The position numbers were made by a program, and so were the translations under genes. Of a DNA stretch of 50,433 bases, positions 3,843-50,433 are shown piece after piece (position 1 is the first letter of the stretch; the number at the start of each line of letters is the position of its first letter). The notes beneath the pieces were generated by a model that was not told the DNA's origin, ran no database searches, and saw only the letters and a program-made list of their open reading frames with translations. Source of the DNA: Patescibacteria group bacterium. GTDB lineage: Bacteria; Patescibacteriota; Microgenomatia; JAMCZE01. Location of the stretch: contig JAMCZE010000008.1 of NCBI GenBank assembly GCA_023485845.1, positions 1 through 50,433 of the forward strand, given 5' to 3'.

Positions 3843-3969
3843 TCACAAAATCAATAAATCCAATCTGCCAATTTCCAATGTCTAATATCCAATTCGTAAT
3901 TCCCAATCTGTTTTTGCGTCATAAAAATTGGTTATTAACTGATTGGTCATTGGTTTTATTGAATTGTTT

Positions 3970-5580
3970 ATGATCCAAAATTTTATAAGAAATTTCTGTG
4001 TGATTGCCCATGTGGACCATGGCAAGTCCACCCTGGCGGACCGGTTCTTGGAAATCACCGGCGCTGTTACTCGCCGGCAAATGCGCGAGCAAACCCTGGA
4101 TTCCCACCCCATCTCCCGGGAACGGGGCATTACTATTCGCTTGGCCCCAGTCACCATGAGCTATCAAGGCTATCAGCTTAATCTGATCGATACTCCCGGC
4201 CATGTCGATTTCTCTTATGAGGTTGAGCGCACCCTTTCTGCCTGCGAAGGAGCGATTCTTTTGGTGGACGCCACCCAGGGTGTTCAGGCCCAAACCCTGT
4301 CGCACTTTCGCAAGGCCGCCGCCTTGGGCCTGACAATTATTCCTGCCATCAACAAAATCGACGCCCCAAATGCTGATGTCGAAGAGGTCGAGCGTCAGCT
4401 TCAAGAGACCACCTCTCGTGAAGGTAAAATTTACAAAGTTTCAGCCAGGACAGGAGAAGGGGTAGAAGAATTACTTCAGACGGTGATCGAAAAAGTTCCC
4501 CCGCCCGAAGGAAATCCGTCCGGCCCGACAAAATCCTTAATTTTTTCTTCCCAATACAGCCAGGAACAAGGCGTGATTGCCTTTATTAAAGTTTTGGCCG
4601 GAACCGTCACCGGCGACGTGGGCCATTTTTTGCCGGCGATGACGCCGGCGGACAAGTTGGAAGCCGGCGAAGTCGGTTATCAGCTAACCCACATCAAAGA
4701 CCCGGCCAAGGTGTCCGTCTGGGAAGGCTACCAGGCGCCAAAACCGACAGTTTTTGTCAGCATTTTCCCGGTGGACCAGGACGACTATCCCCTCTTAGAA
4801 GACGGCCTAAAAAAACTAAAACTTAATGACGCGGCCATCACTTTTTCCCCCACCGCTTCCAAGGCCCTGGGCCGCGGCTGGCGCTGCGGTTTTTTGGGCC
4901 ACCTGCACGCGGAAATCTCCCAGGAACGGCTGGAAAAAGACTATGATTTGTCGCTGATTGCCACGATGCCAACCGTCGAATATCACGACAGTGAGGAACC
5001 CTGGGTGAAAACGACCATCATTACTCCTATCGATTACGTCGGGGCCATCATCACTCTTTGCGAGGACCGGCGGGGAAAACTGGCCAATATGCAGTATCAT
5101 GGCCGCAGTGTCACCCTGGAATATGAGCTGCCGCTCTCCGAGATGATCACCAATTTTTTTGACAAACTAAAATCCGCCTCTTCCGGCTTTGCCAGCCTAG
5201 ATTATGAACCGTCAGGCTATCGCCCCTTTGCCGCCGTGAACCTGGAAATTCTCATTAATCATGAGCCGGTTGACGCTTTCTCACAAATAATGGAAAAGGG
5301 GCGGGGCCAAAAGTTTGGCAAGTTCCTTGTTGAACGGCTCAAGGACATTATTCCCCGCCAGCAAATCCCCATTCCCATCCAGGCCATGATCGACGGCCAG
5401 GTCATCGCCCGGGCGGACATTCCGGCTTTTAGAAAAGACGTGACCGCCAAACTCTATGGCGGCGATGTCACTCGCCGGATGAAGCTTTTGGAGAAACAGA
5501 AGAAAGGCAAGGAAAAGATGAAAAGCATTGGCCGTGTCCAAATCCCCGGCGACACCTTCCTGAAAATCTTCAAAACTTGA
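3970..5580 (+). CDS. lepA: Elongation factor 4 (LepA) GTPase
   Basis: NFCVIAHVDHGKSTLADRFLEITG, RERGITI, IDTPGHVDF, C-terminal YGGDVTRRMKLLEKQKKGKEKMKSIG. Confidence 0.9.
   Translation: MIQNFIRNFCVIAHVDHGKSTLADRFLEITGAVTRRQMREQTLDSHPISRERGITIRLAPVTMSYQGYQLNLIDTPGHVDFSYEVERTLSACEGAILLVDATQGVQAQTLSHFRKAAALGLTIIPAINKIDAPNADVEEVERQLQETTSREGKIYKVSARTGEGVEELLQTVIEKVPPPEGNPSGPTKSLIFSSQYSQEQGVIAFIKVLAGTVTGDVGHFLPAMTPADKLEAGEVGYQLTHIKDPAKVSVWEGYQAPKPTVFVSIFPVDQDDYPLLEDGLKKLKLNDAAITFSPTASKALGRGWRCGFLGHLHAEISQERLEKDYDLSLIATMPTVEYHDSEEPWVKTTIITPIDYVGAIITLCEDRRGKLANMQYHGRSVTLEYELPLSEMITNFFDKLKSASSGFASLDYEPSGYRPFAAVNLEILINHEPVDAFSQIMEKGRGQKFGKFLVERLKDIIPRQQIPIPIQAMIDGQVIARADIPAFRKDVTAKLYGGDVTRRMKLLEKQKKGKEKMKSIGRVQIPGDTFLKIFKT
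5550..5576 (+). repeat. 27-bp direct repeat copy 1 (3' end of lepA)
   Basis: CGACACCTTCCTGAAAATCTTCAAAAC, identical to 6627-6653. Confidence 0.9.
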
Positions 5581-6620: not shown

Positions 6621-6626
6621 TCCCGC

Positions 6627-6653
6627 CGACACCTTCCTGAAAATCTTCAAAAC
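6627..6653 (+). repeat. 27-bp direct repeat copy 2 (copy of lepA 3' end)
   Basis: Identical to 5550-5576. Confidence 0.9.
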
Positions 6654-6677
6654 GTGAATTGTGTTATCCTGGTTAGG

Positions 6678-12023: not shown

Positions 12024-14396
12024 CTACTCACATAAAGAAATTGATGATTGGGCGTCGTTGATGATCTCACCGAGGAATGGCATTTGATCCAAAATGGCAC
12101 CGGTCTGACAAGTGCCGATGTTATTGGGGTCAGTGAAATAGTCGTTGGTCAAATTGGGATATAAAAGAATCTGATAGTGCACATGGGTGCCGGTGGTGGT
12201 GCATTGGGAAGCACCCAATCCGCCGCAGATTTGTCCAGAATAAGTTTCCCCAATGGGGTCACCCCTTTTAACAATTACATTTTTCGTCTCATCGAGATTT
12301 TGCGCTGGTAACCCATCGTTGGCCAAATGCAAATAGGCCACAATGTAGCTGTTGTCCAAACTGCGAATATAGACCACCCCACCCAGAGCCGGATAGCAAA
12401 ACCCGGTGGGAGAAAGAAGCGGTGTGCAAGTGGCCGTCGTCGGGCCAGTGTCAAAAGCGCTTTTAATCACCACTCCGTCAACGGTGGAATAAACCGTGGT
12501 CTGCGGCCCGGCAATGTCCATTCCCCCTTTAGAATGGCTGCTGCAAGTGCGCCCCCAACCGAAAAGGTCCAAAAAAGTGCCGCAGTGGTCCTCTTCGTGA
12601 TAGCTTGCCGGACAACTGATAGGCTTTCCGTCAGCATCGCGCTGTGGATCGACTTTGTCATTTGGGTCGGAATTATTCACACATTTAACCGGCTCCAGAT
12701 CCAATGATGAGATCTTGCCGGAAGCGGGATAACCAAACGGCGGCTTAATCTTGGGTGACCCAATAGTGACCTTAGTGGTGATGCTTTCTGTTTCGTCTGC
12801 TGGTTCGTTCTCTCCTTTCCCGGTCACATTAATCGTGTTTAATAACACTGAGTCATTAAATCGAGGATCATTAATAGTCACTGTGTAGGTAAGCCTAAGT
12901 GGTGTGTCTGGCGTGGTTGTGCCACCCGTCAGAGTTCCCCTAACCATCGGCGGGCGATCACCTTTTCCCACAGAGGTCAATTGATATTCAACTCTGCTCA
13001 CTGTCACGTTCTCCACCGGGGTTGTCACCGTCAATGTGTAGGTAATGTTGGCATTGTCGGAATATGAAGAAATTTCGGCCGGATCCGCGGTTTGCTCCAG
13101 TTTGAAAGTGATTTTTGCCTCCTGGCCCTCCGTCGCTTGAGCCGGCAAAAGAATGATTAGCAGTGCTGCCACACCAACTAATAATGGGGTTAGCACCACC
13201 ACTAAGGGGGCGACAAAAGAAAGTGATAAACCAGCCAAAGCGGCGGAGGAAAAAGCCGATATGGCGGCCGCGCCGGAACTGAGCCCGGAAATAATCGACG
13301 GGATGATGGTTTCAATCCCCAAACCGGTGATGAAAGCCGCCGTCATGGCCGCCGGGCCAAAAGGCGACGCAAGCAACATCAGGGTTGTCGCCAAACCATG
13401 GCTAAGGAAAAAACTCAAGAGGTAACCCACTGCCAGACTAGCACCAAAAGCCAGCTTTTTCAGGGCATCCCGGATCGGCTGGGGAATCCGATTCCAAACA
13501 GCCTTCACCGCTCCCCAAACTCTTTTTGCCACTTCCAAAGCCGCGGCCACAGCCTGGCCGCCGGGAATCAGGGCAATCAGACCCTCAAGGGCATCGGAGG
13601 CCACTTCTTTGACCGCTTTTTTTGTTACCTCTTTGGCAACCTTTTTTGCTCCTTTGGCAACACTCTTGGTCACTGCTTTTTGGGCCGCCTTCTCCGCGGT
13701 TTTTTTGGCAACATCTGCGGCCGCGTTTTTTCCGGGGACCCAGAAAAGATTACGTACCCAAGAGATGGGATTTCGCAAAAAAACTCTGACTTCTGTGCGC
13801 CAGCCACCGGCCGGGCGTGCCAGATTAATGGGAGCCTCCACCACCTGCCGGGCCATCTGCACTGCCGGTTGATAGGTTATCTTTCTTGAAATTGGAGCTC
13901 TTTGCTGATCCGGTCCATTGGCAGTTTGCTCTTCCCTGATAATGTCATCCCGAACAATTTGATCCGCCGCGTTGGCGGCAATTTCCCGGGCATCAGTGGT
14001 GTTTTTGCCCCGTTGGTTGGCAAACTCCTGATACCATTTTTTGAAATTATCATTCCAACTCTTGCGGCGATTGGTCGTTTTCTTCCGATCCTCGTCCAAT
14101 TGATCAAGATCTTGCTTAGTCGGCTGGCCATTCTTCAAGTCTTTCTCGATTTGGTCCAAAACAACTAACCGGGCTTGCTGCCAGCCATCGGCGTGGTCAA
14201 AAAATTCCTTTGGTTTTTCTCCAAGAAGCTGCTCCACTTTAGAAATTTCCGCATCCCGGGGCACTTCCATCTCCACGTCTTTTTCAACAAAACTGTTCGT
14301 CGGGGCCTTGGGATCTTGCTCCCACTTGAGGGCCAGCAGAAGAACATCATTCCACGACAAAACTATTGCGGGCTCATTCTCTGCCATAGCTTTCAT
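12024..14396 (-). CDS. Large membrane protein with C-terminal M23 peptidase-like domain
   Basis: Cytoplasmic N-terminus, TM block, beta-rich region, C-terminal HSKGGMDIAGPQTTVYSTVDGVV...GTHVHYQILLYP. Confidence 0.7.
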   Translation of the reverse strand: MKAMAENEPAIVLSWNDVLLLALKWEQDPKAPTNSFVEKDVEMEVPRDAEISKVEQLLGEKPKEFFDHADGWQQARLVVLDQIEKDLKNGQPTKQDLDQLDEDRKKTTNRRKSWNDNFKKWYQEFANQRGKNTTDAREIAANAADQIVRDDIIREEQTANGPDQQRAPISRKITYQPAVQMARQVVEAPINLARPAGGWRTEVRVFLRNPISWVRNLFWVPGKNAAADVAKKTAEKAAQKAVTKSVAKGAKKVAKEVTKKAVKEVASDALEGLIALIPGGQAVAAALEVAKRVWGAVKAVWNRIPQPIRDALKKLAFGASLAVGYLLSFFLSHGLATTLMLLASPFGPAAMTAAFITGLGIETIIPSIISGLSSGAAAISAFSSAALAGLSLSFVAPLVVVLTPLLVGVAALLIILLPAQATEGQEAKITFKLEQTADPAEISSYSDNANITYTLTVTTPVENVTVSRVEYQLTSVGKGDRPPMVRGTLTGGTTTPDTPLRLTYTVTINDPRFNDSVLLNTINVTGKGENEPADETESITTKVTIGSPKIKPPFGYPASGKISSLDLEPVKCVNNSDPNDKVDPQRDADGKPISCPASYHEEDHCGTFLDLFGWGRTCSSHSKGGMDIAGPQTTVYSTVDGVVIKSAFDTGPTTATCTPLLSPTGFCYPALGGVVYIRSLDNSYIVAYLHLANDGLPAQNLDETKNVIVKRGDPIGETYSGQICGGLGASQCTTTGTHVHYQILLYPNLTNDYFTDPNNIGTCQTGAILDQMPFLGEIINDAQSSISLCE

Positions 14397-14405
14397 CCTA
14401 GCAGA
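14377..14405 (-). repeat. 29-bp repeat copy 1, gene-start module encoding MKAMAE
   Basis: TTCTCTGCCATAGCTTTCATCCTAGCAGA identical to 38081-38109. Confidence 0.85.
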
Positions 14406-14847: not shown

Positions 14848-14971
14848 GTCGTTATATTTAAAAATTCGAACTGATTTTAAAAATTTAAATCGTTAGGTCT
14901 CCGCCCCGCCTGCGGGCGGGGCTTATTGTATCGCTCCGGCCCTCGCTCTTGCTCGGGCCTTCGCTTTTTCG
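14848..14971 (+). repeat. TIR2 left copy
   Basis: GTCGTTATATTTAAAAATTCGAACTG...CTCCGCCCCGCCTGCGGGCGGGGC...GCTTTTTCG. Confidence 0.85.
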
Positions 14972-15788
14972 TTTTAATTTCTTTTTTGCACGCGCGACGA
15001 ACGACGACGGCGTTCGAAGGAATTTAGAACCGCAATTCAACGCAGTTGAATTATATCATTTTTCCCGAATCGGCCAAAATGGTGGAAAATGGCCGATTCG
15101 TGCCTGGAATTGCTACTATTTATATAGGTTTTCGAGCTCGCTGAGCCTGAGCACAAGTTGAGCGTGGAACCTCTGGAATTTGGCCGATTCCGGCTCCGCC
15201 GGTTTGGTTTTTCCCGCCCCCCACTAACACTTCGCTTTAGTACAAGAGTACAAGACCGAAACAACCCACCCACCCGATTTGTTGTTGGCGGCGACCCCAT
15301 TCATCGCGCGCTGAGCCGCCTAGGGGCGGCTTGCGACGAAAGGTTTTCTATTCTAGAAAGTTCCTACTGCGCGTCCTGTCGGCCTTTTGATGACTTCCTT
15401 GTCCAACATTACGCTTTCTGTTTCGGCCTACCAAAGAACTGACTTTTGAGGCTCGCGCGTTCTGGGGTGATCCGCTATTCGCCCCCGCCTTCTTTGTTTG
15501 TACCCCTTCCTGTTTTTGTAGGGCTCCGGCGACAGCGCTTAAGGATTATTTTATTTAACATTTTAGTCGCCGTTCGCGAGGACAACCATGGGCTCACCCC
15601 GCGCTTTCTTTCCCCTTAAGGATTATCTTGCGGGGGTCGCGTTAGGAGAAAAAGCTATTTGGAGTTTTCCTTCCCTCGAAAGTTTGCCTGACGCTTTTTC
15701 TCCTTTCAGCTTTGAGTTCTTGAGGGGCGGGGGCGGCGGGGCCGCCAACACAAAAGATTTTTTGGGTCGTTTTTGCTAGACTGATTAT

Positions 15789-16931
15789 ATGGACGATCCT
15801 TCTTCTGACCAGACGCAGACGCAAGACACAACACCACAACCAACAGTTTCACCGGCTGATCAACCGCCGGTGGAAACTCCACCGGAACAACCACCACAAA
15901 ATCCACCCACTGAAACTCCAGCAACAGAAACACCGGAACCAACCGAAACAAAAACAGAAACACCAACTCAATCGGAGCAAACTCCTGTTACTGAAGCATC
16001 AGCACCACAACCTGAACTGCCACCAGTCGACATTCCCATTCCCAATTTCCGTTTCCCGTTTAATGGTGATTATCCCGTAACTTTTCCTTTCAACGCCCAA
16101 GCAACAACTGGTGAAATGAAAGCCAAGTTTTCCCAGTGGGGAATTACCGGTCATCACGGAATTGATTTTGGTTTACCGGGGGGAACAGAGGTTTTAGCTG
16201 TTGATGCAGGCAAGATTTTGCAGTCCAGTGAGAACGGTGATTACGGAATTTCTGTTACCATTCAACATCCGTGGGGACAATCTTTATACGCACATCTGAA
16301 AGAAACAAAAGTTTCAGAAGACCAAGAAGTTAAAGCCGGAGATTTAATTGGCATTTCCGATCAAACTGGTTCTGCCTTTGGTCCCCATTTGCATTTTGGA
16401 ATAAAACCAAACAATCCAAACGAAAGTAATGGCTATCTTGGTTTTATTGATCCTACCCAATATTTACCAGCCGTTTCCCAAATCCCCCAAGTCCCACAAA
16501 CTCCTCAACAAGAGCCGGAAAAGCCCAAAGAAGAACCGGCACCAGTTCAACAACCAGTGCAGCCCGAACCAATTCCGGAACCAACAATTAACATTGAACC
16601 AGAAAAACCAGTTGAACAACCCCAAATTCCTCAACCTCCTCAAGTCCCACAAGTGAGTGATGAAGAAATTCAAAAACAAGTGGACGATAAATTAAAAACT
16701 GAATTAGACGCCAGAAGATTAAAAGCTAATCAAGCAAGACAAACAAAAAGAGAAGAACACTTAATACAGATTGAAAAATTAATTGAGACAAAGAAACAAA
16801 TTAACAATAACGACGTTTGTGATTTACTTCATGTTGCCCAAAGTACTGCCACCAACTATTTAGAGGATTTAGTTAAACGGGGAACTATCAAAACCGAAGG
16901 TAAAGCTAAAGCCACCGTTTATCACTTCTAG
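15789..16931 (+). CDS. M23 peptidase-like domain between Pro/Thr/Gln-rich linkers, C-terminal winged HTH
   Basis: GITGHHGIDFGLPGGTEVLAVDAGKI...SAFGPHLHFGI; C-terminal LIETKKQINNNDVCDLLHVAQSTATNYLEDLVKRGTIKTEG. Confidence 0.75.
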   Translation: MDDPSSDQTQTQDTTPQPTVSPADQPPVETPPEQPPQNPPTETPATETPEPTETKTETPTQSEQTPVTEASAPQPELPPVDIPIPNFRFPFNGDYPVTFPFNAQATTGEMKAKFSQWGITGHHGIDFGLPGGTEVLAVDAGKILQSSENGDYGISVTIQHPWGQSLYAHLKETKVSEDQEVKAGDLIGISDQTGSAFGPHLHFGIKPNNPNESNGYLGFIDPTQYLPAVSQIPQVPQTPQQEPEKPKEEPAPVQQPVQPEPIPEPTINIEPEKPVEQPQIPQPPQVPQVSDEEIQKQVDDKLKTELDARRLKANQARQTKREEHLIQIEKLIETKKQINNNDVCDLLHVAQSTATNYLEDLVKRGTIKTEGKAKATVYHF

Positions 16932-16934
16932 TTT

Positions 16935-17312
16935 TTATTTTGTCGCTACTGGTGCCGTAACTGGTGTAACTGTTTGTGTGGTTATTTTCCCGTTTGTACT
17001 TTCTTCTGTTACCGTCTTTACAGTTTGGGCGACATTAAACATTTGGGGAAATCGTAACCGATACAAACTTTCGAGAAAATCAGTTCCTGCGTATCCAGCA
17101 AGTAAAGATATTCTCCAATCACCATCAGCAATCAGTCCTGAAACAATTCCAACAATCCCTGAAACCAAAAGGGTAAAACCAAAATACTGCCAGTGAATTT
17201 TAAACTCGTCGGGGTTTTGGGATTGTTTTAGGATTCCAACTAGTCCTCGTACCAATCCACCACCAAGTCCTGTCAGTAGATGATAAATTTGAAACTCTAA
17301 ATTAATCGTCAT
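16935..17312 (-). CDS. Small membrane protein, possibly holin-like
   Basis: 2 TM segments; 4-nt overlap with upstream TrpR-like gene. Confidence 0.5.
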   Translation of the reverse strand: MTINLEFQIYHLLTGLGGGLVRGLVGILKQSQNPDEFKIHWQYFGFTLLVSGIVGIVSGLIADGDWRISLLAGYAGTDFLESLYRLRFPQMFNVAQTVKTVTEESTNGKITTQTVTPVTAPVATK

Positions 17313-17623
17313 GTTTTTACCACCTCCTTAACTTTTTGTACTTTTGTACTATTGTGCAAGACTGCAAAGCCACCCTTCCCAAACTTTATTACTTGTCCAA
17401 TCTTTGAAATGGTCGAAGTGCTAACAGGAATTTCTGCTGCAATTTCTTCGTAGGTTTTTCCATCAAGAATCAACTTTGCTATTTTTAATCTTTGGGCAAG
17501 ATCAAGGGTTTCTTCCGGAGAAAACAAATCTTCGATAAATTTTGCTAGATTCTTTTTGGTTTTAACTTTGAAAAAAGAATTAATTACTAACTGGGTATCT
17601 TTGTTTAAATTAATCTTGTCCAT
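17309..17623 (-). CDS. TrpR/YerC-like HTH protein
   Basis: DLFSPEETLDLAQRLKIAKLILDGKTYEEIAAEIPVSTSTISKIGQ. Confidence 0.75.
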   Translation of the reverse strand: MDKINLNKDTQLVINSFFKVKTKKNLAKFIEDLFSPEETLDLAQRLKIAKLILDGKTYEEIAAEIPVSTSTISKIGQVIKFGKGGFAVLHNSTKVQKVKEVVKT

Positions 17624-17633
17624 ATATTTATTA

Positions 17634-20231
17634 TTACCAACACCAGAATAGAAAACAAGTTTTTGGTTTAGACGGTGACTGGGATTCGGGTATCGATGTT
17701 GGTTGAATTTCTGGTTGAGTTGTTGTGGTTGTTTTCAGAATTGGTGTCGTTGGTAAGGTGACAGTGGGATAACCGACTACAAAATAGGTGTTAAATATTT
17801 TGGTGGTGTTGGAGATAGTTTTGTTATTCCAATCAATGACAGTGTTGTTTGGGATAGTTTTCCATTTTGTTCCATCATAATATCCAATTCTTAAATTATT
17901 TGAATTAGAACTGGTGTAAGGTAAAGTAAGAGTGGCAGGGTTATCCAGTGGGGTTACTGGATAGCCATTGAAAGCGGAAAGAACTTTAACTTCAAAGATA
18001 TCACTTGCGGTATTTAATCCTTGTTCCCAGGGATATGGAACTTTGGGGGTTTGGTTGGAAAGATAGTCTGTTGATCTTTTGAACAGTTGGATATATAGAT
18101 CATCATGGTGGGTGGTATCTGCAGAAAATATACTGGCTCCCTGATCAGTCAGAAATGAGTTACTTCCTTGGTGGTGGGGACCAGAAGTAATGCAATATTT
18201 AAAGTTCCAGAGACAGTTAGGATCAGAGTTCCCAGAACTACCAGTACTGGGACTGTCATTAAAGGTAGCCACAGCATATGAACTTTGAGCTGTGTAACTA
18301 CCATTGGTATCAAAGGCTCTGATATATACCTTGTTAGAGGATCCAGAGGGAAAGTTAGAGAGAGTACAGGTAAAACTAGTAGTTCCTGTACAGTTGGTCC
18401 AGGAGGATGATGAAGGAGAATTGTCATTGTAGTTGTACTGGACTCCAGAGACACTAGTTACTGAATTAGAAGCTGTCACTGTTCCCATGATTTTGTCTTT
18501 ACCGGAAGAAGTGAGAGTGATTGAATGGGGGAAGTTGTAGATGATATAAAGAGAGTCTCTTCCCGCGGCTGAAATCACAAAATCGTCTTTTCCGTCTCCA
18601 TTTAAGTCAGTAGGAGCATCCTGGTATACAGACTTTGATAATCTGTTGTTGGCGGCTGCGCCATCAAAACGAAGCGTGTAATTATTTGAATTACTTAAAT
18701 CGATTAGATTTCCTGTTGTCCCCAAAAACTGCATAAAAATGTTTCTCGCTAATATAAAAAATGACCCTGAAAAAGAACCGTTTGGGTTGGCGTTGAAACT
18801 ACTAATGGCTAGATCTAGTCCACTGCCGTCGGTAAAATTCCCTCCGTAAAGTGTGTGAAATGCTCCTGCTCCATTTATTACAGCGGTGTAGTTTGCTGAA
18901 ACAGCCATATCGAGAGTATTACCAGTTCCCGAATGATTTGAGAGAAATGACTTTATATCTTCAATCAATGTAATATTACCTGTGTTTGGAAAACCAGCGT
19001 CACCAATCACAAGCGTTAATTTTCCTGACGAAGTAAAATCGTTTACAGAAATAGACCTACCAAAGAAACTAAGATTTGGATCACTGACACCATCTAAACG
19101 AATATTCCAATTAGAACTGTTTGCCATATCTAAAGTATTTCCGGTTCCGCTTAGGTAAGAACTTAAGATGCTGTCCTTGATAATAAATACTGATCCAGAC
19201 AGTGATCGTGAATTATAACTAGCATCATCTGCACCAATAATCAAATCATTTTTTCCGTTACCGTCTAGGTCACCGGCGTATTCTCCCACTGAAAATTCAT
19301 CAGAAGCGGTAGCTCCATCAATTCTTAAAGTAAAATTCGATGAGCTACTTAAGGCAACAATATTGCCAGTACTGTTAAAATATTGGCTTAGTATCGAACC
19401 GTCAATTATAAAAAGTGATCCCGAATCTGTGCGGCTATTTTGATTTGAGCTAAATGCAGGAAGCAGTAAATCCTGTGAGCCATTTTTATTAAGATCTAAC
19501 ATTTTCATTTGCCCCCCACCAAGAAAAACTGTTAGTGAATCTCCGTCAATTCTTATATTGAATGTTGATGCAGTAGAAATGTCTACATTATTTCCCGTAC
19601 CTTGATATTGAGTAATCAACGAATTTAATATGACGTAAACATGTCCCGGGCTTTTAACATCACCCAAAATCAAATCAACTTTTCCATCGCCATCAATATC
19701 AGAAACTATTTTATTTGTTCCGAGATGACTGCTTGCCAATGCACCATCAAAACGAATGTTGTAGTTAGCCGCATTAGTAAGGTCAATTGTGTTTCCGGTT
19801 CCTAAATACTTAGAGAGAATGGAATTGTAAATTATGTAAACTGATCCCGAATTTGATCTTCCATTAAAACTTGCGTTTTGCGCCGCCACAATAAGGTCGG
19901 GTTTCCCGTCGCCGTCCAAATCGGCAACTCTATAGTTATCAGCAAAGTCCGTACCAGATGCTCCGTCTATCCTAATATTCCAGTTTGTGCTTGTACCCAT
20001 ATTGTAAGTGGTCGCGGCCAAGATTTTAGAAGGAAAAATGAAGGAAGATAAAAATAGAAACAGGGAAAGGGAGAAGAGAAATTTTACAAAGCCGCGGAGC
20101 GGCTTACTCTCTCTCTCTCTCTCTCTCTCTCGATCCCAAGCTTGAAAGCAAGTTTTTGAAACATAACATATTAGGTTGGTGAAAATATTTTTCTCCATAT
20201 TATTTATAGTATGTCCAACCAGCAATTGCAA
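17634..20231 (-). CDS. Secreted FG-GAP/integrin-alpha-type repeat protein, first gene of a three-gene operon
   Basis: Signal peptide VKFLFSLSLFLFLSSFIFPSKILA; repeated DLDGDGKPDLIV / GSVYIIYNSILSKYLGTGNTIDL units; Thr/Pro-rich C-terminus. The only in-frame ATG before the CT tract encodes MEKN. Confidence 0.8.
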   Translation of the reverse strand: MQLLVGHTINNMEKNIFTNLICYVSKTCFQAWDRERERERESKPLRGFVKFLFSLSLFLFLSSFIFPSKILAATTYNMGTSTNWNIRIDGASGTDFADNYRVADLDGDGKPDLIVAAQNASFNGRSNSGSVYIIYNSILSKYLGTGNTIDLTNAANYNIRFDGALASSHLGTNKIVSDIDGDGKVDLILGDVKSPGHVYVILNSLITQYQGTGNNVDISTASTFNIRIDGDSLTVFLGGGQMKMLDLNKNGSQDLLLPAFSSNQNSRTDSGSLFIIDGSILSQYFNSTGNIVALSSSSNFTLRIDGATASDEFSVGEYAGDLDGNGKNDLIIGADDASYNSRSLSGSVFIIKDSILSSYLSGTGNTLDMANSSNWNIRLDGVSDPNLSFFGRSISVNDFTSSGKLTLVIGDAGFPNTGNITLIEDIKSFLSNHSGTGNTLDMAVSANYTAVINGAGAFHTLYGGNFTDGSGLDLAISSFNANPNGSFSGSFFILARNIFMQFLGTTGNLIDLSNSNNYTLRFDGAAANNRLSKSVYQDAPTDLNGDGKDDFVISAAGRDSLYIIYNFPHSITLTSSGKDKIMGTVTASNSVTSVSGVQYNYNDNSPSSSSWTNCTGTTSFTCTLSNFPSGSSNKVYIRAFDTNGSYTAQSSYAVATFNDSPSTGSSGNSDPNCLWNFKYCITSGPHHQGSNSFLTDQGASIFSADTTHHDDLYIQLFKRSTDYLSNQTPKVPYPWEQGLNTASDIFEVKVLSAFNGYPVTPLDNPATLTLPYTSSNSNNLRIGYYDGTKWKTIPNNTVIDWNNKTISNTTKIFNTYFVVGYPTVTLPTTPILKTTTTTQPEIQPTSIPESQSPSKPKTCFLFWCW
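20107..20131. repeat. Dinucleotide microsatellite (CT)12C inside the 5' coding part of the FG-GAP gene
   Basis: Direct read CTCTCTCTCTCTCTCTCTCTCTCTC; encodes RERERERE on the minus strand. Confidence 0.9.
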
Positions 20232-20361
20232 TAGACTACTGATGATTGTTACCTACATAAGCTTAGTAATAGTTAGCAAATAATACAAGCAGCAAGTTGA
20301 AGCTGTTTGCAAAGAAATAACTTGTGGATTAATAGCCTCATGGCAACGAGAATTTTCTCGT

Positions 20362-20583
20362 ATGCCAAGAAAAAACAATAGGACACTGGAGAAACTTGGA
20401 ACCAAGATCCGAAAGCTACGAAAAAATACAAAACTCACCCAGGAAGAGCTGGCTGGAGATTTAGATATTAGCCGTGTTTACATGGGTTACATCGAGCAAG
20501 GTCGGGAAAGCCCATCGCTTAAGTTGTTAATGAAAATGGCTCGAAAGTTTAAAGTCAAAGTTGAGGATTTATTCCACCGGTAA
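20362..20583 (+). CDS. XRE-family HTH regulator
   Basis: LGTKIRKLRKNTKLTQEELAGDLDISRVYMGYIEQGRESPSLKLLMKMARKF. Confidence 0.85.
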   Translation: MPRKNNRTLEKLGTKIRKLRKNTKLTQEELAGDLDISRVYMGYIEQGRESPSLKLLMKMARKFKVKVEDLFHR

Positions 20584-20675
20584 ACGCTAAACCTTAATTT
20601 TGATATCTTGACAGAAAATGGTAATATAAGAGTGCGGGTGTGGGTCTCTTGTCCATGACCCGCAATTTAATTCCC

Positions 20676-21488
20676 TTAATTCCTCCAGTCCATTTCCCAC
20701 ACACTGAAATATGAAGGGCTTGTGGCAGTGAAACTTCCACAGATAGATTTTTTGTTTAATGCCATTTTAAGTTCGTTGACTACGCCACTTCGTTTTTCTG
20801 CCAGCTTGTTCGAGACCAATCCCCCTGCTTGTTTATAATCCCAAGTGACACAACCTAAAAGGACGTCAACCAGTTGAATAAGTAAACTAGCATGAGATTC
20901 CAAACGAGTACATTTGAAGTTTAATGAGCTCATTCCGCGTTTAACCAACGCTTCTTTGGTTTTTGTCTCCAAGTTTTGCTCAAAAGTTGTTTGGATATTT
21001 CCTGGTTTACTAAGATCGTCGGCCAAAATGCAGACTCCACTACATTTAAGATTAGCCGCTTCTCGAGCAATTAACATGCCTGCATATTTCATGTAAGTAT
21101 CCCAGGTTCCCGGGATGAGTGAAACTGGGTGATAGTGTGGATTTTGTTTATCAATGATTATCGCAGCGAAATGTGCTTCGTGAATTGTGAAGTAGTCTTT
21201 GATAATTTCTCGGTAAGTGCCTTGATTGAGAAAGTTAATCCGGTCAAATTTTAGCTCAAAACGCTTACCGCCTTTAGCTATTGTGGCAACTTCTTCTGGT
21301 TTGTTTTCTGTTAAAAGTTGGTCAACACGATTGGCTCGACTTAAGTCAGAAATAGTATGAATATTAAGTGCTCGCTTGGAAATTAGATCGTAAAGCGTGC
21401 CAGTTTCTCTAAGAAGCAACAGGCCAATTCCAAAATACCTTTCCTGTTTAGTATTGCCACTTTCATCAATAAATCCAAAACAATCCAT
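20676..21488 (-). CDS. DUF3800 domain protein
   Basis: N-terminal MDCFGFIDESGNTK and C-terminal QLVDVLLG motif. Confidence 0.75.
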   Translation of the reverse strand: MDCFGFIDESGNTKQERYFGIGLLLLRETGTLYDLISKRALNIHTISDLSRANRVDQLLTENKPEEVATIAKGGKRFELKFDRINFLNQGTYREIIKDYFTIHEAHFAAIIIDKQNPHYHPVSLIPGTWDTYMKYAGMLIAREAANLKCSGVCILADDLSKPGNIQTTFEQNLETKTKEALVKRGMSSLNFKCTRLESHASLLIQLVDVLLGCVTWDYKQAGGLVSNKLAEKRSGVVNELKMALNKKSICGSFTATSPSYFSVWEMDWRN

Positions 21489-21719
21489 ATCTGTATTTTA
21501 TTCTTTAAATCCAAAAATTTGAAGAAGAAGATACCATGGGCACGAGCCCTTGGGGATTCCTTGCTTTTACAAAAATGTTACCTTAACAATTTTTCCAATT
21601 GATATTAATCGAACCTCTTAGATATATATTGCAATATTGAAACTCCACAAGCTTTTGATCACACTGAAAAAGTGCGGAAAATTTTAGCCTTTCTTTTAAC
21701 GATTCGAGTCGACACTTTG

Positions 21720-21843
21720 CGAAAAAGCGGAGGCCCGAGCGAAGTCGAGGGCCGGAGCGATACAATAAGCCCCGCCCGCAGGCGGGGCGGAGACCTAACG
21801 ATTTAAATTTTTAAAATCAGTTCGAATTTTTAAATACAACGAC
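21720..21843 (-). repeat. TIR2 right copy (inverted)
   Basis: Reverse complement of 14848-14971 with about six differences. Confidence 0.85.
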
Positions 21844-23543
21844 CGCAAATCAGGAGTGGACCAAAAAAACTGGGGAGAGCGAGTCCCGTCCACTGGCGGG
21901 ACGAGCGCGTCAAAACCGCCCGATTTGAAATTGACGGCCAGCTGCCGGATACAGATAGCAAAAGAAGAAAAGAAAGGGCAAAAATTTTCGTAACAAGGAA
22001 AAATATTATCATAGTGCAGTAGCACAATAGTACAAAGCTAAAACGCTTATGAAATACATAGCTTACTGTCGAAAATCAACTGATGAACCAGACCGGCAAA
22101 TTCTTTCCATTGAAGCCCAAATTGCCGAGTTGAAAGAATTTGCAGAAAGAGAACATCTGGAGATTTTAGATTTTGTGGCCGAAAGCAAAACGGCCAAAGA
22201 GCCAGTAGAGAAAAATTTAACGAGGTTTTAAAAAGAATTGAAAAAGGGGAAGCTGGAGGCATTGTTTCCTGGCACCCGGACAGATTGGCAAGAAACTCGG
22301 TAGATGGTGGAAAGATAATCTATCTGTTGGATACTGGTAAAATTCTTGATTTAAAGTTTCCCTCTTTTTGGTTTGAAAATACTCCCCAAGGAAAGTTCAT
22401 GCTTTCCATTGCTTTCGGCCAATCAAAATATTATGTGGATAATCTGAGCGAAAATATTAAACGGGGGAACAGACAAAAGTTAAGACGAGGAGAATATCCG
22501 GGGAAAGCACCGTTTGGTTATGTAAATGATCCGATAACCAGAGGAGTGATCATTGATCGAAAAAGAGCAAAGTTTGTTAAAACTGCTTTTGAAATGATTG
22601 CTGATGGTAAAAATCCAGTGGATGTTAGAAATTACTTTTTAGCGGAAAAAGTTTGCGACAGAAGGGGTTTATCAGCTACATATTATGACCGAATTAAAAG
22701 ACTTTTAAACAATACTTTTTACTACGGGGTTTTTAAATTTAATGGGGAATTTTATGAAGGGAAGCAAAAGCCCATCATTTCCAAAAAACTTTTTGATAAG
22801 GTTCAACAAAATTTAAAACCGAGAAAATTAAAAAGTAATAAAGCGAATTTTGAATTTTTGGGCTTAATGAAATGTGGGGAATGTGGATCATCAATAACGG
22901 CAGAAATTCATCACAAGTTTTACAAGCGAAAAGGTAGGCACGCCGAATATATTTACTACCGGTGTTCCAAGAAAAAAGGGTCGTGTAATCAAAAATATCT
23001 TTCCGGGGGAATTTTAGAAGATCAGATTTTTGAAAACCTTAAAAAGGTCGCTCTTCCAAATTCCGCCGCCCAAAAATTCAAAATATGGGCTAATGAAGAT
23101 GCACAGGAGGAAAGAAAATTATCTGCCGGACAAATTGAAATTCTTAAAGTTCAACTTAAAGAAGCTGAAGGAAAAATTGACCGACTGCTGGAAGGATATT
23201 TAGACAAAATAATTGACCCGGTGGAATATCAAAAAAAGAAAAACGAATTACTTCAGATGAAAGTAACAATAAACGAGAAAATTAAGGAAATTGAAAGGAC
23301 GGGAAATAATTGGCTCGAACCCTTTTTAGAATTCGTAGAAACGGCGTCGGAAATAGAAAAAATCGCGCGCGCAAAAAAGAAAGACATAAGTTTGCGAAAC
23401 TTAGTCCAAAGTGTCGGCTCGAACTTCTTTTTAACTGATCGGCAGCTGGCCGTCAATTTCAAATCTGGCGGTTTTGACGCGCTCGTCCCGCCAGCGGGCG
23501 GGACTCGCTCTTCCCAATTTTTCCGCTCCACTCTTGATTGGCG
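21844..23543 (+). mobile_element. Serine-recombinase element B with ~105-bp TIRs
   Basis: Left TIR CGCAAATCAGGAGTGGACC...; right TIR ends ...TCTTGATTGGCG; inner GATTTGAAATTGACGGCCAGCTGCCG identical in both TIRs of this copy. Confidence 0.7.
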
Positions 23544-23625
23544 GAACATCGTGAGGGACGTTGGAAAGATACTTCAGCGACAAACCGAGTATATTTACAT
23601 CCCCAATTTAAGTCCTCAGAATTAA
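22049..23625 (+). pseudogene. Serine recombinase, frameshifted near codon 50
   Basis: 22049-22231 ends TAKEPVEKNLTRF*; remainder in another frame (22285-23625); 1-nt deletion relative to copy D around 22200. Confidence 0.75.
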
Positions 23626-34450: not shown

Positions 34451-36103
34451 ATGGAGCAACAAGCTCAAAAAATTAAATACTTTCTTTACGCCAGAAAATC
34501 ATCGGAGAGCGAGGATCGGCAGGTGCAGTCCATCGATGACCAAATCAATCGGCTAAAAGAGCTGTCAAAGGATTTGAGTTTGGATATTAAGAAAATCTAC
34601 AAAGAATCAAAGTCGGCAAAAAAGCCGAATAATCGCCCCCTGTTTGATGAAATGATCCAGCGCATTGAGGACGGAGAAGCCGATGGTATTTTGTGCTGGC
34701 AAATAAACCGACTATCCAGAAATCCGATTGATAGCGGAAAATTAAGCTGGCTTTTACAACAAGGCACGCTCAAATCGATTCAGACCATGGATCGAAAATA
34801 TCTACCCGATGATAACGTCATTCTCTTCAGCGTTGAAAGCGGAACAGCAAATCAATACATTTTGGATTTAAGAAAAAACGTCAAACGAGGACAGGAATCA
34901 AAATTAGCGAAAGGTTGGCTGCCCGCCTGCGCTCCTCAAGGATACTTAAACAGCAAAACCAAAGAAAAGGGAGACAACGATATTCTCAAAGACCCAGAAC
35001 GCTTTCCGCTAATAAGAAGAATGTGGGAGCTGATGCTGACAGGAAATTACACTCCGCCTCAAATCGCAAAGATTGCCAATGAGCAATGGGGATACACAAC
35101 AAGAAAAACAAAAAGAAGTGGTGGTAATCCTTTATCAAAGAGCGGAATTTATAGAATCTTTACCAATATTTTCTACACAGGAGTTATTGAATATAGCGGA
35201 CGGCAATACGAAGGTAAGCACGAACCGATAATCACGCTTGAAGAATACGACGCAGTCCAAAAACTTCTTGGGAGAAAAGGCAGGCCCAGACCAAAGAATC
35301 ACGCCTTTGCTTTTACTGGTTCGATACGCTGTTCTGAGTGCGGTTGCCTTTATACGGCCGAGACAAAACAAAAGTTAATAAAAGGTACTGGCAAAATCAA
35401 AGAATATACCTATTATCACTGCACCAGACGCAGAGAAGATTATAACTGCTCGCAAAAGAAAAGCATCAAACTTGATGATTTGGAATTGATGATTGAAAAA
35501 GAACTCGAAAAATATACCATCTTACCAGAGTTCCTGGGCTGGGCCCTGGAAGGTTTGAATAAAAAGAATGACACAGAAATCGAAGAAAGGACGAAGGTTT
35601 ACGAAATGCAGCATAAAACGCTCGTTCAAACCCAGAAAGAATTAGACGAGCTGACCAGAATGAGATACCGCCAGCTTATCGATGACGAAACATTTATCAA
35701 AGACAAAAACGAGCTGACGGCAAAAATTGCACAACTAAAAAGCAAACTGAGGGAGACCGAAGCCAGGGCCGAACGCTGGCTGGAATTATCAGAAAGAACT
35801 TTCAGTTTTGCTACCTATGCTCGCAAGGCTTTTATAACAGGCGGGTTAGAACTGAAGAAAGAAATATTACTTGGATTAGGTCAAAGCCCTAAAATTAAAG
35901 ACGGAAAGCTTGTGATCGAACCAAACGAATGGTTTCAGCCAATCAAAAATGACTATCCTAAATTAGAGAAAGAATACTTAGGGTTAGAACCGACGAAATT
36001 GCCACTAAATAAAGCAAAAACAGAGGCTTTGACCTCTGTTCGTGCACGCTGGCGGAGGAGACCGGATTCGAACCAGGCTAACTGCTGCCGTGCCAAATGT
36101 TAA
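34451..36103 (+). CDS. Large serine recombinase (divergent from B/D/E), 3' end overlaps a tRNA 3' fragment
   Basis: YARKSSESEDRQVQSIDDQI, GILCWQINRLSRNPID, zinc ribbon IRCSECGCLYTAE; C-terminus WRRRPDSN is antisense tRNA. Confidence 0.85.
   Translation: MEQQAQKIKYFLYARKSSESEDRQVQSIDDQINRLKELSKDLSLDIKKIYKESKSAKKPNNRPLFDEMIQRIEDGEADGILCWQINRLSRNPIDSGKLSWLLQQGTLKSIQTMDRKYLPDDNVILFSVESGTANQYILDLRKNVKRGQESKLAKGWLPACAPQGYLNSKTKEKGDNDILKDPERFPLIRRMWELMLTGNYTPPQIAKIANEQWGYTTRKTKRSGGNPLSKSGIYRIFTNIFYTGVIEYSGRQYEGKHEPIITLEEYDAVQKLLGRKGRPRPKNHAFAFTGSIRCSECGCLYTAETKQKLIKGTGKIKEYTYYHCTRRREDYNCSQKKSIKLDDLELMIEKELEKYTILPEFLGWALEGLNKKNDTEIEERTKVYEMQHKTLVQTQKELDELTRMRYRQLIDDETFIKDKNELTAKIAQLKSKLRETEARAERWLELSERTFSFATYARKAFITGGLELKKEILLGLGQSPKIKDGKLVIEPNEWFQPIKNDYPKLEKEYLGLEPTKLPLNKAKTEALTSVRARWRRRPDSNQANCCRAKC
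36014..36039 (-). terminator. Intrinsic terminator downstream of the tRNA 3' fragment
   Basis: Minus strand ACAGAGG-TCAAAG-CCTCTGTTTTTGC. Confidence 0.65.
36050..36074 (-). tRNA. tRNA 3'-end fragment (T loop, acceptor 3' strand, CCA), att-like
   Basis: Minus strand GGTTCGAATCCGGTCTCCTCCGCCA; no 5' half adjacent. Confidence 0.75.
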
Positions 36104-37644: not shown

Positions 37645-38100
37645 CTATCGAGAAATCGGGGGAACATTGTAGTTTGCTCTCTCTTCGTCTGTTGTCCCCG
37701 GATCGATTTTCCATAAAGTCCACCTATTTCTTACCTTCTTAAACTGGGTGCCGAATTTTTGTGGTTTTCCCTGCGACCCAAGGTAGCGATCTAAACTAGC
37801 AGCATAAAGCCATCTAGCCGGTTCGAATCCAGCGGCCATTAAACATTCCTCACAAAGCTGGTTCGCAACCCGATAATCATCAGACTTGTCACCGTGTTGA
37901 AGTATCATAGCAGCATGATATTTATCCTTAGCAGAAAGAGCCACCCCGGAATTCAATATTTTATACGTTTCCTCCAACCGTAGTCCATCTCTTTTGTCCA
38001 CCTCTGAAGTAATAATTGGGCCATTAAGACCTGGTGTTCGATCTTGTTGGTCTTGTTCAAACAACATCGCCAAGACCTTGTTCTCTGCCATAGCTTTCAT
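37645..38100 (-). CDS. Hypothetical protein sharing its start module with the M23 gene at 14396
   Basis: MKAMAENKVLAM...; 29-bp repeat at start. Confidence 0.55.
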   Translation of the reverse strand: MKAMAENKVLAMLFEQDQQDRTPGLNGPIITSEVDKRDGLRLEETYKILNSGVALSAKDKYHAAMILQHGDKSDDYRVANQLCEECLMAAGFEPARWLYAASLDRYLGSQGKPQKFGTQFKKVRNRWTLWKIDPGTTDEERANYNVPPISR

Positions 38101-38109
38101 CCTAGCAGA
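38081..38109 (-). repeat. 29-bp repeat copy 2
   Basis: Identical to 14377-14405. Confidence 0.85.
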
Positions 38110-47537: not shown

Positions 47538-47813
47538 ATGACTAAAACTCTGCCGATCACCCAAGCCCGGGAGGAACTGCCCCTATTGGTGCGAAATGCC
47601 GCCAGGCGGCTTGATGAATACACCATTACCGTCAACGGCTCACCGGCGGCCGTGTTGCTGTCCGCAGCGGAATATGAATCCTGGAAGGAAACCAATGAAA
47701 TTCTGGCGGATAAGGCATTAATGAAATCAATCAAAAAAAGTGACGAGGACTTGAAGAAAGGAAAATATATTACTTTTGATCAGTTGAAGAAAGAGCTAAA
47801 GCTGAATGTTTAA
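47538..47813 (+). CDS. Phd/YefM-family antitoxin
   Basis: LPITQAREELPLLVRNAARRLDEYTITVNGSPAAVLLSAAEYESW. Confidence 0.8.
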   Translation: MTKTLPITQAREELPLLVRNAARRLDEYTITVNGSPAAVLLSAAEYESWKETNEILADKALMKSIKKSDEDLKKGKYITFDQLKKELKLNV

Positions 47814-48060
47814 GCTGCGGATTTACCCGGAAGCCCAGAGGGAAATTAAAAAGATCAAGCGACTTTACCAAATTTCGGTTATTGAGGCCCTAAAAGAGTT
47901 GGAAGATGACCCTTTTTCCGGAAAAGCATTAACCAGGGAATTGACTGGCTATTTCACTTATAAAATCGGCCAGTTCCGATTAATCTACAAAATTAATGCC
48001 AAAGACTGGGTCGTTGAGATAATTTCCGCCGGCCACCGGGCAATAGTTTATAATAATTAA
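47806..48060 (+). CDS. RelE/ParE-family toxin
   Basis: FKLRIYPEAQREIKKIKRLYQ...LTGYFTYKIGQFRLIYKINAKDWVVEIISAGHRAIVY. Confidence 0.8.
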   Translation: MFKLRIYPEAQREIKKIKRLYQISVIEALKELEDDPFSGKALTRELTGYFTYKIGQFRLIYKINAKDWVVEIISAGHRAIVYNN

Positions 48061-48069
48061 GTCAAACTT

Positions 48070-48151
48070 GGAGGGTTGGCCGAACGGTAAGGCGATGGTC
48101 TTGAAAACCATTGAGAGCAATCTCTAAGAGGTCCGACTCCTCTACCCTCCG
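48070..48151 (+). tRNA. tRNA-Ser (TGA anticodon), CCA displaced by element D
   Basis: Acceptor GGAGGGT/ACCCTCC, anticodon loop CTTGAAA; followed by CAAATC rather than CCA. Confidence 0.9.
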
Positions 48152-48257
48152 CAAATCAGGAGTGGACCAAAAAAACTGGGGAGAGCGAGTCCCGTCCACT
48201 GGCGGGACGAGCGCGTCAAAACCGCCTTTTTTGAAAGATACGGCCAGCTGCCGATCA
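48150..48257 (+). repeat. TIR1 left copy of element D (encodes recombinase C-terminus)
   Basis: CGCAAATCAGGAGTGGACCAAAAAAACTGGGGAGAGCG...GCCAGCTGCCGATCA. Confidence 0.9.
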
Positions 48258-49645
48258 GTTAAAAAGAAGTTCGAGCCGACACTTTGGACTAAGTTTCGCA
48301 AACTTATGTCTTTCTTTTTTGCGCGCGCGATTTTTTCTATTTGAGACGCTTTATTTACGAATTCCAAAAAGGGTTCGAGCCAATTATTTCCCGTCCTCTC
48401 GATTTCCTTAATTTTCTCTCCAATGGTTACTTTCATTTGAAGAAGTTCGTTTTTCTTTTTTTGATATTCCATTGGGTCAATTATTTTGTCCAAATATCCT
48501 TCCAAAAGTCGATCAATTTTTTCTTCGGAATTTTTGAGTTGTGCTTTTAGGATTTCAACTTCTCCGGCAGAAAGTTTTTTCTCCTGGTTGGCATCTTCAT
48601 TGGCCCACATTTTGAATTTTTGGGCGGCAAATTCTGGAAGAGCGACCTTTTTAAGGTTTTCAAAAATCTGATCTTCTAGAATTTCCCCGGAAAGATATTT
48701 TTGTGAGCAATGGCCTTTCTTTTTAGAACACCGGTAGTAAATATATTCGGCGTATCGTCCTTTTCGCTTGTAAAATTTATTATGTTTTTCCGCCGTTATA
48801 CTTGATCCACATTCTCCGCACTTCATCAAGCCTAAAAACTCGAAGTTCGCTTTATTACTTTTTAATTTTCTCGGTTTTAAATTTTGTTGAACCTTATCAA
48901 AAAGTTTTTTGGAAATGATGGGCTTTTGCTTCCCTTCATAAAATTCCCCATTAAATTTAAAAACCCCGTAGTAAAAAGTATTGTTTAAAAGTCTTTTAAT
49001 TCGGTCATAATATGTAGCTGATAAACCCCTTCTGTCGCAAACTTTTTCCGCTAAAAAGTAATTTCTAACATCCACTGGATTTTTACCATCAGCAATCATT
49101 TCAAAAGCAGTTTTAACAAACTTTGCTCTTTTTCGATCAATGATCACTCCTCTGGTTATCGGATCATTTACATAACCAAATGGTGCTTTTCCCGGATACT
49201 CGCCTCGTCTTAATTTTTGTCTATTTCCTCTTTTGATATTTTCGCTCAAATTATCAACATAATATTTTGGCTGGCCGAAAGCAATGGAAAGCATGAACTT
49301 TCCCTGGGGAGTGTTTTCAAACCAAAAAGAAGGGAATTTTAAATCCAGAATTTTGCCGGTATCCAACAGATAAATTATTTTTCCGCCATCAACAGAGTTT
49401 CTAGCTAAACGATCTGGGTGCCAACTTAAAATCCCACCGGCTTCTCCGTTTTCAATTCTTTTTAAAACCTCGTTAAATTTTTCTCTCCCCGGTTCCTTGG
49501 CTGTTTTGCTTTCGGCCACAAAATCGGTTATTTCTAAGTGTTCCCTCTCTGCGAATTCTTTCAGTTCTGCAATTTGTGCTTCAATCGACAGAATTTGCCG
49601 ATCTGGTTCATCAGTAGATTTTCGACAGTATGCAATGTATTTCAT
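48152..49645 (-). CDS. Large serine recombinase (ORF formally runs to 48062 through the tRNA)
   Basis: YIAYCRKSTDEPDRQILSIEAQI, WHPDRLARNSVDGGKI, zinc ribbon LMKCGECGSSITAEKHNKF. Confidence 0.9.
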
Positions 49646-49732
49646 ATTAGTTTAGTACTCTTGTGCTTTAGCACTATGATAATATTTTCCTCTTAACGAA
49701 AATTTTTGCCCTTTCTTTTCTTCTTTGTTTCT

Positions 49733-49840
49733 TGATCGGCAGCTGGCCGTATCTTTCAAAAAAGGCGGTTTTGACGCGCTCGTCCCGCCAGTGGACGGGA
49801 CTCGCTCTCCCCAGTTTTTTTGGTCCACTCCTGATTTGCG
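49733..49840 (-). repeat. TIR1 right copy of element D (inverted)
   Basis: Reverse complement of 48150-48257. Confidence 0.9.
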
Positions 49841-50433
49841 GTCGTTGTATTTAAAAATTCGAACTGATTTTAAAAATTTAAATTGTTAAGTCTCCGCCCC
49901 GCCTGCGGGCGGGGCTATTGTTAAGCTCCGGCCCTCGCTCTTGCTCGGGCCTCCGCTTTTTCGCAAAGTGTCGGCTCGAATCGTTAAAAGAAAGGGCAAA
50001 AATTTTCGTTAAGAGGAAAATATTATCATAGTGCTAAAGCACAAGAGTACTAAACTAATATGAAATACATTGCATACTGTCGAAAATCTACTGATGAACC
50101 AGATCGGCAAATTCTGTCGATTGAAGCACAAATTGCAGAACTGAAAGAATTCGCAGAGAGGGAACACTTAGAAATAACCGATTTTGTGGCCGAAAGCAAA
50201 ACAGCCAAGGAACCGGGGAGAGAAAAATTTAACGAGGTTTTAAAAAGAATTGAAAACGGAGAAGCCGGTGGGATTTTAAGTTGGCACCCAGATCGTTTAG
50301 CTAGAAACTCTGTTGATGGCGGAAAAATAATTTATCTGTTGGATACCGGCAAAATTCTGGATTTAAAATTCCCTTCTTTTTGGTTTGAAAACACTCCCCA
50401 GGGAAAGTTCATGCTTTCCATTGCTTTCGGCCA
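49841..50433 (+). mobile_element. Start of recombinase element E with TIR2-type end, truncated by window end
   Basis: GTCGTTGTATTTAAAAATTCGAACTG... resembling TIR2 of 14848-14971, then recombinase promoter and ORF. Confidence 0.65.
50060..50433 (+). CDS. Serine recombinase N-terminus (partial), identical by eye to element D N-terminus
   Basis: MKYIAYCRKSTDEPDRQILSIEAQIAELKEFAEREHLEITDF..., open at window end. Confidence 0.85.
   Translation, partial: MKYIAYCRKSTDEPDRQILSIEAQIAELKEFAEREHLEITDFVAESKTAKEPGREKFNEVLKRIENGEAGGILSWHPDRLARNSVDGGKIIYLLDTGKILDLKFPSFWFENTPQGKFMLSIAFG

Follow-up and report, generated by a model that had tools for sequence, protein, structure and literature searches.

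Several described systems share parts of the arrangement reported here. Cargo islands at the 3′ ends of tRNA genes are moved by tyrosine recombinases in, e.g., the tycheposons, the Hin and Gin invertible cassettes place a segment holding a promoter or a tail-fibre gene between short inverted repeats next to a serine recombinase gene, and the yeast 2-micron plasmid carries its FLP gene between two inverted recombination sites, one of which overlaps the 3′ end of the gene. Elements and prophages driven by large serine recombinases (LSRs) of the A118/LI, TP901-1 and phiC31 type have in common with the present locus a three-domain recombinase, an attP adjoining the recombinase gene and a zinc-ribbon motif lying 5 bp further out in attP than in attB, and SCC elements are likewise LSR-moved cargo islands, whose Ccr recombinases are capable of attP × attP recombination (PMC3783163). 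The locus differs from LSR prophages in an additional complete attP, placed in inverted orientation before the gene, that is identical to the element ends and has no counterpart in 12 phage LSRs, in its use of the 3′ end of many tRNA genes as target, and in a recombinase C-terminus encoded by the att region together with the antisense strand of a tRNA. The tRNA 3′-end target and the internal inverted attP also set it apart from SCC elements, and it departs from tycheposon-type islands in its serine recombinase, its core of 4-6 bp in place of a long duplication of the tRNA end and, again, the inverted internal attP. Compared with Hin and Gin cassettes, the flanked segment is here an attP instead of a promoter or tail-fibre gene, and any inversion of it would be putative. 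The 2-micron plasmid is similar in that its circle holds a recombinase gene between two inverted sites, one overlapping the 3′ end of the gene, whereas the present recombinase is of the serine rather than the tyrosine type, the element is integrative and no replication function was recognised. No description of an inverted spare attP was found in the open-access literature, an absence that is weak evidence of novelty, and such a site, evolving in concert with the element ends, lies outside the serine-integrase paradigm.

The window (the whole 50,433-nucleotide stretch analysed, contig JAMCZE010000008.1 of a Patescibacteria group bacterium) ends in the recombinase side of an element designated A. 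The reading favoured here, with a probability of roughly 0.6, is that this is the recombinase end of an LSR-driven integrative element carrying a spare, inverted attP as a putative control and recombination-partner site. The features of element A within the window are as follows.

48070..48152, plus strand: tRNA-Ser(TGA), the integration target and putative attB half (ARAGORN; Rfam tRNA, E=4e-10)
48062..49645, minus strand: large serine recombinase A, 527 aa (open reading frame; Pfam Resolvase, Recombinase and Zn_ribbon_recom)
48149..48257, plus strand: L end of element A (the left "TIR"), read as attL and the true boundary (repeat and core comparison)
48270..48286, minus strand: C motif CAAAGTGTCGGCTCGAA (minus strand), T-arm-like, inside recombinase codons (repeated at 49964-49980; recurs in relatives)
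49695..49719, minus strand: P′ inverted repeat, recombinase side of the internal cassette (inverted match to 49986-50010)
49733..49841, minus strand: internal inverted L copy (the right "TIR"), not an element end (repeat search; A/B comparison)
49842..49963, plus strand: internal inverted R copy, R|L forming a predicted whole attP (A/B comparison)
49964..49980, plus strand: second C motif, adjoining the internal R copy (repeat; seen in relatives)
49986..50010, plus strand: P inverted repeat, cargo side (repeat comparison)
50010..50433, plus strand: palindromic contig end, the recombinase 5′ end again, after P (repeat search)

The initial annotation had described perfect 108-bp inverted repeats around one recombinase gene and had taken them for the ends of an IS-like unit of about 1.69 kb. 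The repeats are real and exact and are one base longer than given: a repeat search of the window returned 48149-48257 and 49733-49841 as inverted repeats of 109 nt that are 100% complementary and stand 1475 nt apart, and an exact match of 109 bp within a 50-kb window cannot have arisen by chance. A single recombinase open reading frame (48062-49645, minus strand) does lie between them and reads out through the left repeat, which thus doubles as coding sequence for the C-terminus, the final codons passing through L and then antisense through tRNA-Ser. Repeats of this length are indeed atypical of serine recombinases.

The proposed insertion sequence is contradicted by a second copy, element B, whose recombinase region at 21688-23545 of the window is 88-89% identical to that of element A. 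Continued homology past the repeats in other copies had been named as evidence against an insertion sequence, and the homology of element B passes the right repeat by about 144 bp, taking in the sequence of the R end (49842-49963) and then another 20-45 bp, which include a 17-bp motif and part of one more repeat. The homology of the copies does not end at both repeats, and the unit they bound was not found in unrelated sites; its right repeat adjoins a copy of the other element end, R, in 29 elements. Together with the absence of such repeats from L110, the sole recombinase-only element found, this makes a repeat-bounded insertion sequence very improbable, even though exact repeats enclose a single recombinase gene. 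The annotation's alternative, a duplicated and inverted 3′ end of the gene, came near the truth in that the right repeat is an inverted L, but this L is joined to an inverted R.

The R block of about 123 bp (49842-49963) also stands alone, at 14848-14971 of the window and at C4:5713-5841, on the contig of the same genome that carries the cargo. Contig C4 opens with exactly the 127 bp of window 49883-50009, and because of this exact overlap the window most likely runs on into C4. Element A as reconstructed from these two contigs measures about 7.6 kb, from 48149, at the discriminator base at the 3′ end of tRNA-Ser(TGA), to C4:5841, where its real R end lies (G000:C4:5713-5841, locus L047), and its core is CCGCAA at the outer edge of L. 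Element B covers 8.7 kb (14848-23545), is largely collinear with A and has the following parts.

14848..14971, plus strand: R end of element B, second and decayed (A/B comparison)
21703..21843, minus strand: internal C motif (21703-21719) and internal R copy (21720-21843) (A/B comparison)
21843..21947, plus strand: internal inverted L copy (sequence comparison)
22049..23625, plus strand: recombinase of element B (Pfam Recombinase and Zn ribbon); the listed open reading frame begins at 22285, after a frame break near the 5′ end
23440..23545, minus strand: L end of element B (sequence comparison)

As the joined A and B are largely collinear with a common cargo, encoding an FG-GAP protein, a Trp-repressor-like protein, a 125-aa protein and an M23 peptidase, the solitary block is identified as R and the left repeat as L. 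The sequence upstream of the recombinase then reads as R joined to L, inverted, as is expected of the junction of a circle, that is, of a predicted attP.

The same architecture recurs among relatives. In a first set, the 3′ end of almost all recombinase genes recurred, exactly or nearly so, in inverted orientation a short way before the start of the same gene, and at most loci the outer side of this L copy met an inverted duplicate of the opposite element end, which itself often lay kilobases off. For a second set, 80 loci in named genomes were picked by recombinase protein profile alone, blind to repeats; across Patescibacteria, 63 of 71 testable recombinases carry the inverted 3′-end copy, typically 75-138 bp long at 97-100% identity. 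Only six of 320 other open reading frames on the same contigs scored, and by their coordinates all six are cargo genes between R and the internal R. The copy is present beside the third family member of this genome (contig C3) and is missing from the six distant serine recombinases of the same genome and, as noted above, from the 12 phage serine integrases. The position of R could be fixed in 29 elements, A and B among them, which span 2.4-10.9 kb, and in all of them the internal R is joined to L and inverted; no internal R copy with a located partner is in direct orientation. In two of the eight negative cases, L151 and L158, the sequence available upstream is too short, and L103 and L134 possess an internal attP that is unlike their own L end. 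L110 (LCOA01000022.1) consists of the recombinase alone, with R directly before the gene and without internal attP, and no internal copy was found in L107, L131 and L144, which indicates that the copy is not strictly essential. That the repeats and internal attP are a real and conserved architecture is held with high confidence.

This distribution also bears on the possibility, raised with the initial annotation, that the inverted copy was produced by assembly. A palindrome at a contig end would fit such an origin, but separately assembled genomes from many lineages share the inverted internal attP, on long contigs among others, and a degraded copy is found in a complete chromosome (L112, CP055307.1), so an artefact is the least credible account of the repeats. 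It is refuted for the repeats themselves and not for the segment 50010-50433. The inverted internal attP probably accounts for many assembly breaks just upstream of these recombinases.

Further members and contents of the family were noted in the course of these comparisons. The internal attP of L103 is close to that of L051, an element in another genome, a likeness that suggests cassette exchange. The contigs of three members (L121, L144, L146) come from bins of Marinimicrobia, Sulfuricaulis and Bdellovibrio, reflecting either mis-binning or transfer out of Patescibacteria. The cargo of L100, L121 and L125 includes a reverse transcriptase, a DNA methylase and an OLD-like ATPase/TOPRIM protein, and viral contigs yielded few relatives, mostly distant ones. 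The genome studied has nine Recombinase-domain matches in 0.88 Mb, and window 34451-36103 encodes a third serine recombinase, of a distant family and without an inverted copy.

The L copies evolve in concert, as judged from their identities. Within one element the two copies have a median identity of 100% (n=59), whereas between elements L is on average 83% identical where the recombinase genes are 85-93% identical, and 65% identical where the genes are 75-85% identical. The extreme pair, L095 and L097, has genes 86% identical and L sequences 51% identical, each L being 100% identical within its own element. Near-identity within elements combined with divergence between them argues that the copies are repeatedly renewed or converted. 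The internal copy of element B is a mosaic, resembling A in outer L and B in inner L.

The element ends point to tRNA genes as the target. In 52 of 63 cases L adjoins a tRNA 3′ end or lies near one, with 14 isotypes involved and the tRNA always antisense to the recombinase. In most bounded relatives, a core of 3-8 bp, mostly 4-6 bp, is common to L, R and the internal copy (e.g., CCGCA, GCACC, TCACC and CAGC) and coincides with the discriminator/CC(A) position. Measured from a single anchor, the T-arm motif [CT]GAAC is 13 bases away in the majority of tRNAs and 18 bases away in the majority of R halves; it is farther out in R than in the tRNA by 5 bp in 22 of 33 pairs and by 4 bp in 9 of 33, and 3% of shuffled R halves contain it. 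A looser motif had given mixed signs, and the values given here are those of the single anchor with the shuffle control. Rutherford and colleagues (PMC3783163) showed that the zinc-ribbon motif of LSR sites lies 5 bp nearer the centre in attB than in attP, and since the offset of the T-arm motif fits this rule, the assignment of R|L as attP and of the tRNA 3′ end as attB is supported by the comparison. With three recombinase domains, a short identical core and the motif shift of 4 or 5 bp (31 of 33 pairs), the family has the features of LSRs, and integration by a serine recombinase through attP × attB recombination at tRNA 3′ ends, which would act at the core of 4-6 bp at the discriminator/CC(A) position and generate attL and attR, is strongly supported by structure. 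A possible trace of a circular intermediate is seen at L054, on the same contig as L120, where a 51-bp terminal repeat accompanies a joined L|R, with an N gap at the internal copy. A search for empty sites by means of the R-side flanking gene was uninformative, the gene being present in just 2 of 89 genomes, one of them the source genome, and no excision factor was identified. Phd/YefM antitoxin and ParE-like toxin genes occupy window 47538-48060, immediately before the target tRNA-Ser.

What the spare attP might do can be considered from its position and orientation. Bound by the recombinase in the leader of its own gene, it may limit expression of that gene; in the excised circle it may pair with the main attP as a recombination or repair partner; and cleavage of one attP followed by repair from the other would keep the two identical. 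Autoregulation alone would be insufficient to explain the full repeat length, as about 100 bp per side exceeds a minimal attP. The inverted orientation may be maintained since, with a second copy in direct orientation, the element would fall into separate units, one holding the cargo and one the recombinase, and the minimal element L110 looks like a unit of the latter type. Intramolecular attP × attP recombination is documented for the LI/A118 integrase and CcrA/B, and is not carried out by most LSRs studied (PMC3783163). Against a mechanism that keeps the copies identical, the internal and end copies differ in L103 and L134. This particular functional role of the inverted internal attP is put forward with reserve, as rather less likely than not.

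Two inverted attP sites in a replicating circle could also serve amplification, their recombination turning replication forks as in the yeast 2-micron plasmid. The placement of the recombinase gene between two inverted recombination sites would be analogous to that of FLP and some LSRs can recombine attP with attP, but this ability is rare among them and no replication gene was recognised among the cargo proteins examined, so copy-number amplification appears improbable.

The internal attP is itself flanked by short inverted repeats, P and P′, which a permissive search recovered in 30 loci, a few of the pairs being weak or misplaced, and failed to recover in about a dozen. The sequence of P varies between lineages and matches within an element, and the T-arm-like C motif lies next to L within the gene and next to R within the internal copy, in relatives as well. 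Such paired, lineage-specific repeats around the cassette, seen in most loci with both sides visible, raise the possibility that the internal attP flips between P and P′, one orientation causing cargo and recombinase to move together and the other creating two tandem units, each with L and R. The end of the contig is relevant here, as it consists of a perfect 448-bp palindrome (49272-49719 and 49986-50433) whose junction R-C-P-recombinase is exactly the product of a cassette flip between P and P′, and the same flipped junction is found in L110 as an integrated recombinase-only element lacking the internal attP. The palindrome is either a flipped-cassette junction present in the population or a fold-back artefact of assembly or library at the 25-bp inverted repeat. 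It occurs on one contig only, no other locus having a palindromic contig end, and fold-back could yield the same sequence; moreover, every internal R with a located partner is inverted and none direct, a dozen or so loci have no P pair, and flipping alone does not make copies identical. An invertible cassette as the explanation of the locus is for these reasons considered rather unlikely.

On the cargo side of P, a -10-like box and a structured leader were found in 16 sequences, mostly from Microgenomates-type elements.

L047:123-230 (G000:C4), with 15 related sequences: structured leader (alignment A3)

The leader comprises two interleaved helices of 22 pairs, of which 99.1% are paired and 13 changed on both sides, compared with 29-39% paired when the helices are slid out of register; as the search pattern used to choose the sequences already prescribes some of the second helix, the conservation of the ends of that helix is partly due to selection. 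It could form a pseudoknot or two alternative helices. In L151 it stands directly before the recombinase with no cassette between, which suggests that it is probably a recombinase leader. Rfam recognised nothing in it, and in the region only the tRNA, so this covarying leader ahead of the recombinases is a candidate for a new RNA family. In several Parcubacteria elements its place is taken by the gene of a small HTH protein of the Cro/CI type, which is divergent to the cassette.

In most of the 16 sequences, the promoter-like box and covarying leader before the cassette would place the internal attP within the recombinase leader, and its transcript might base-pair with the recombinase mRNA at the 3′ end of the latter or act as a guide-like RNA. 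Such an RNA-level role seems distinctly improbable: the identity between copies is one of DNA sequence, close to 100% in each half and not compensatory, the complete internal attP retained by L103 and L134 is no match for the L end of the same element, and the tRNA motifs explain the integration sites without a guide.

Returning to the favoured reading of an LSR-driven integrative element with a spare inverted attP, its most extended form would be a phylum-wide class in which a second, inverted attP in the recombinase leader is held identical by recombination-coupled copying and can be flipped between short inverted repeats, so that one site governs expression, circle topology and the joint travel of recombinase and cargo. 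This extended form is tentative, and the role of the spare attP is open to direct test. The exact ends, cores and cargo boundaries given here define a widespread, modular family of integrative elements in the ultrasmall Patescibacteria (CPR), and as their target motif is the near-universal tRNA T-arm, the family could be of practical interest as a multi-site serine integrase.

Two further repeats were noted elsewhere in the window. A 36-bp repeat, 94% identical, occurs at 5545-5580, the end of the 3943-5580 open reading frame, and at 6622-6657, after the next gene, and an identical 29-bp stretch at 14377-14405 and 38081-38109 lies at the starts of two different minus-strand genes.
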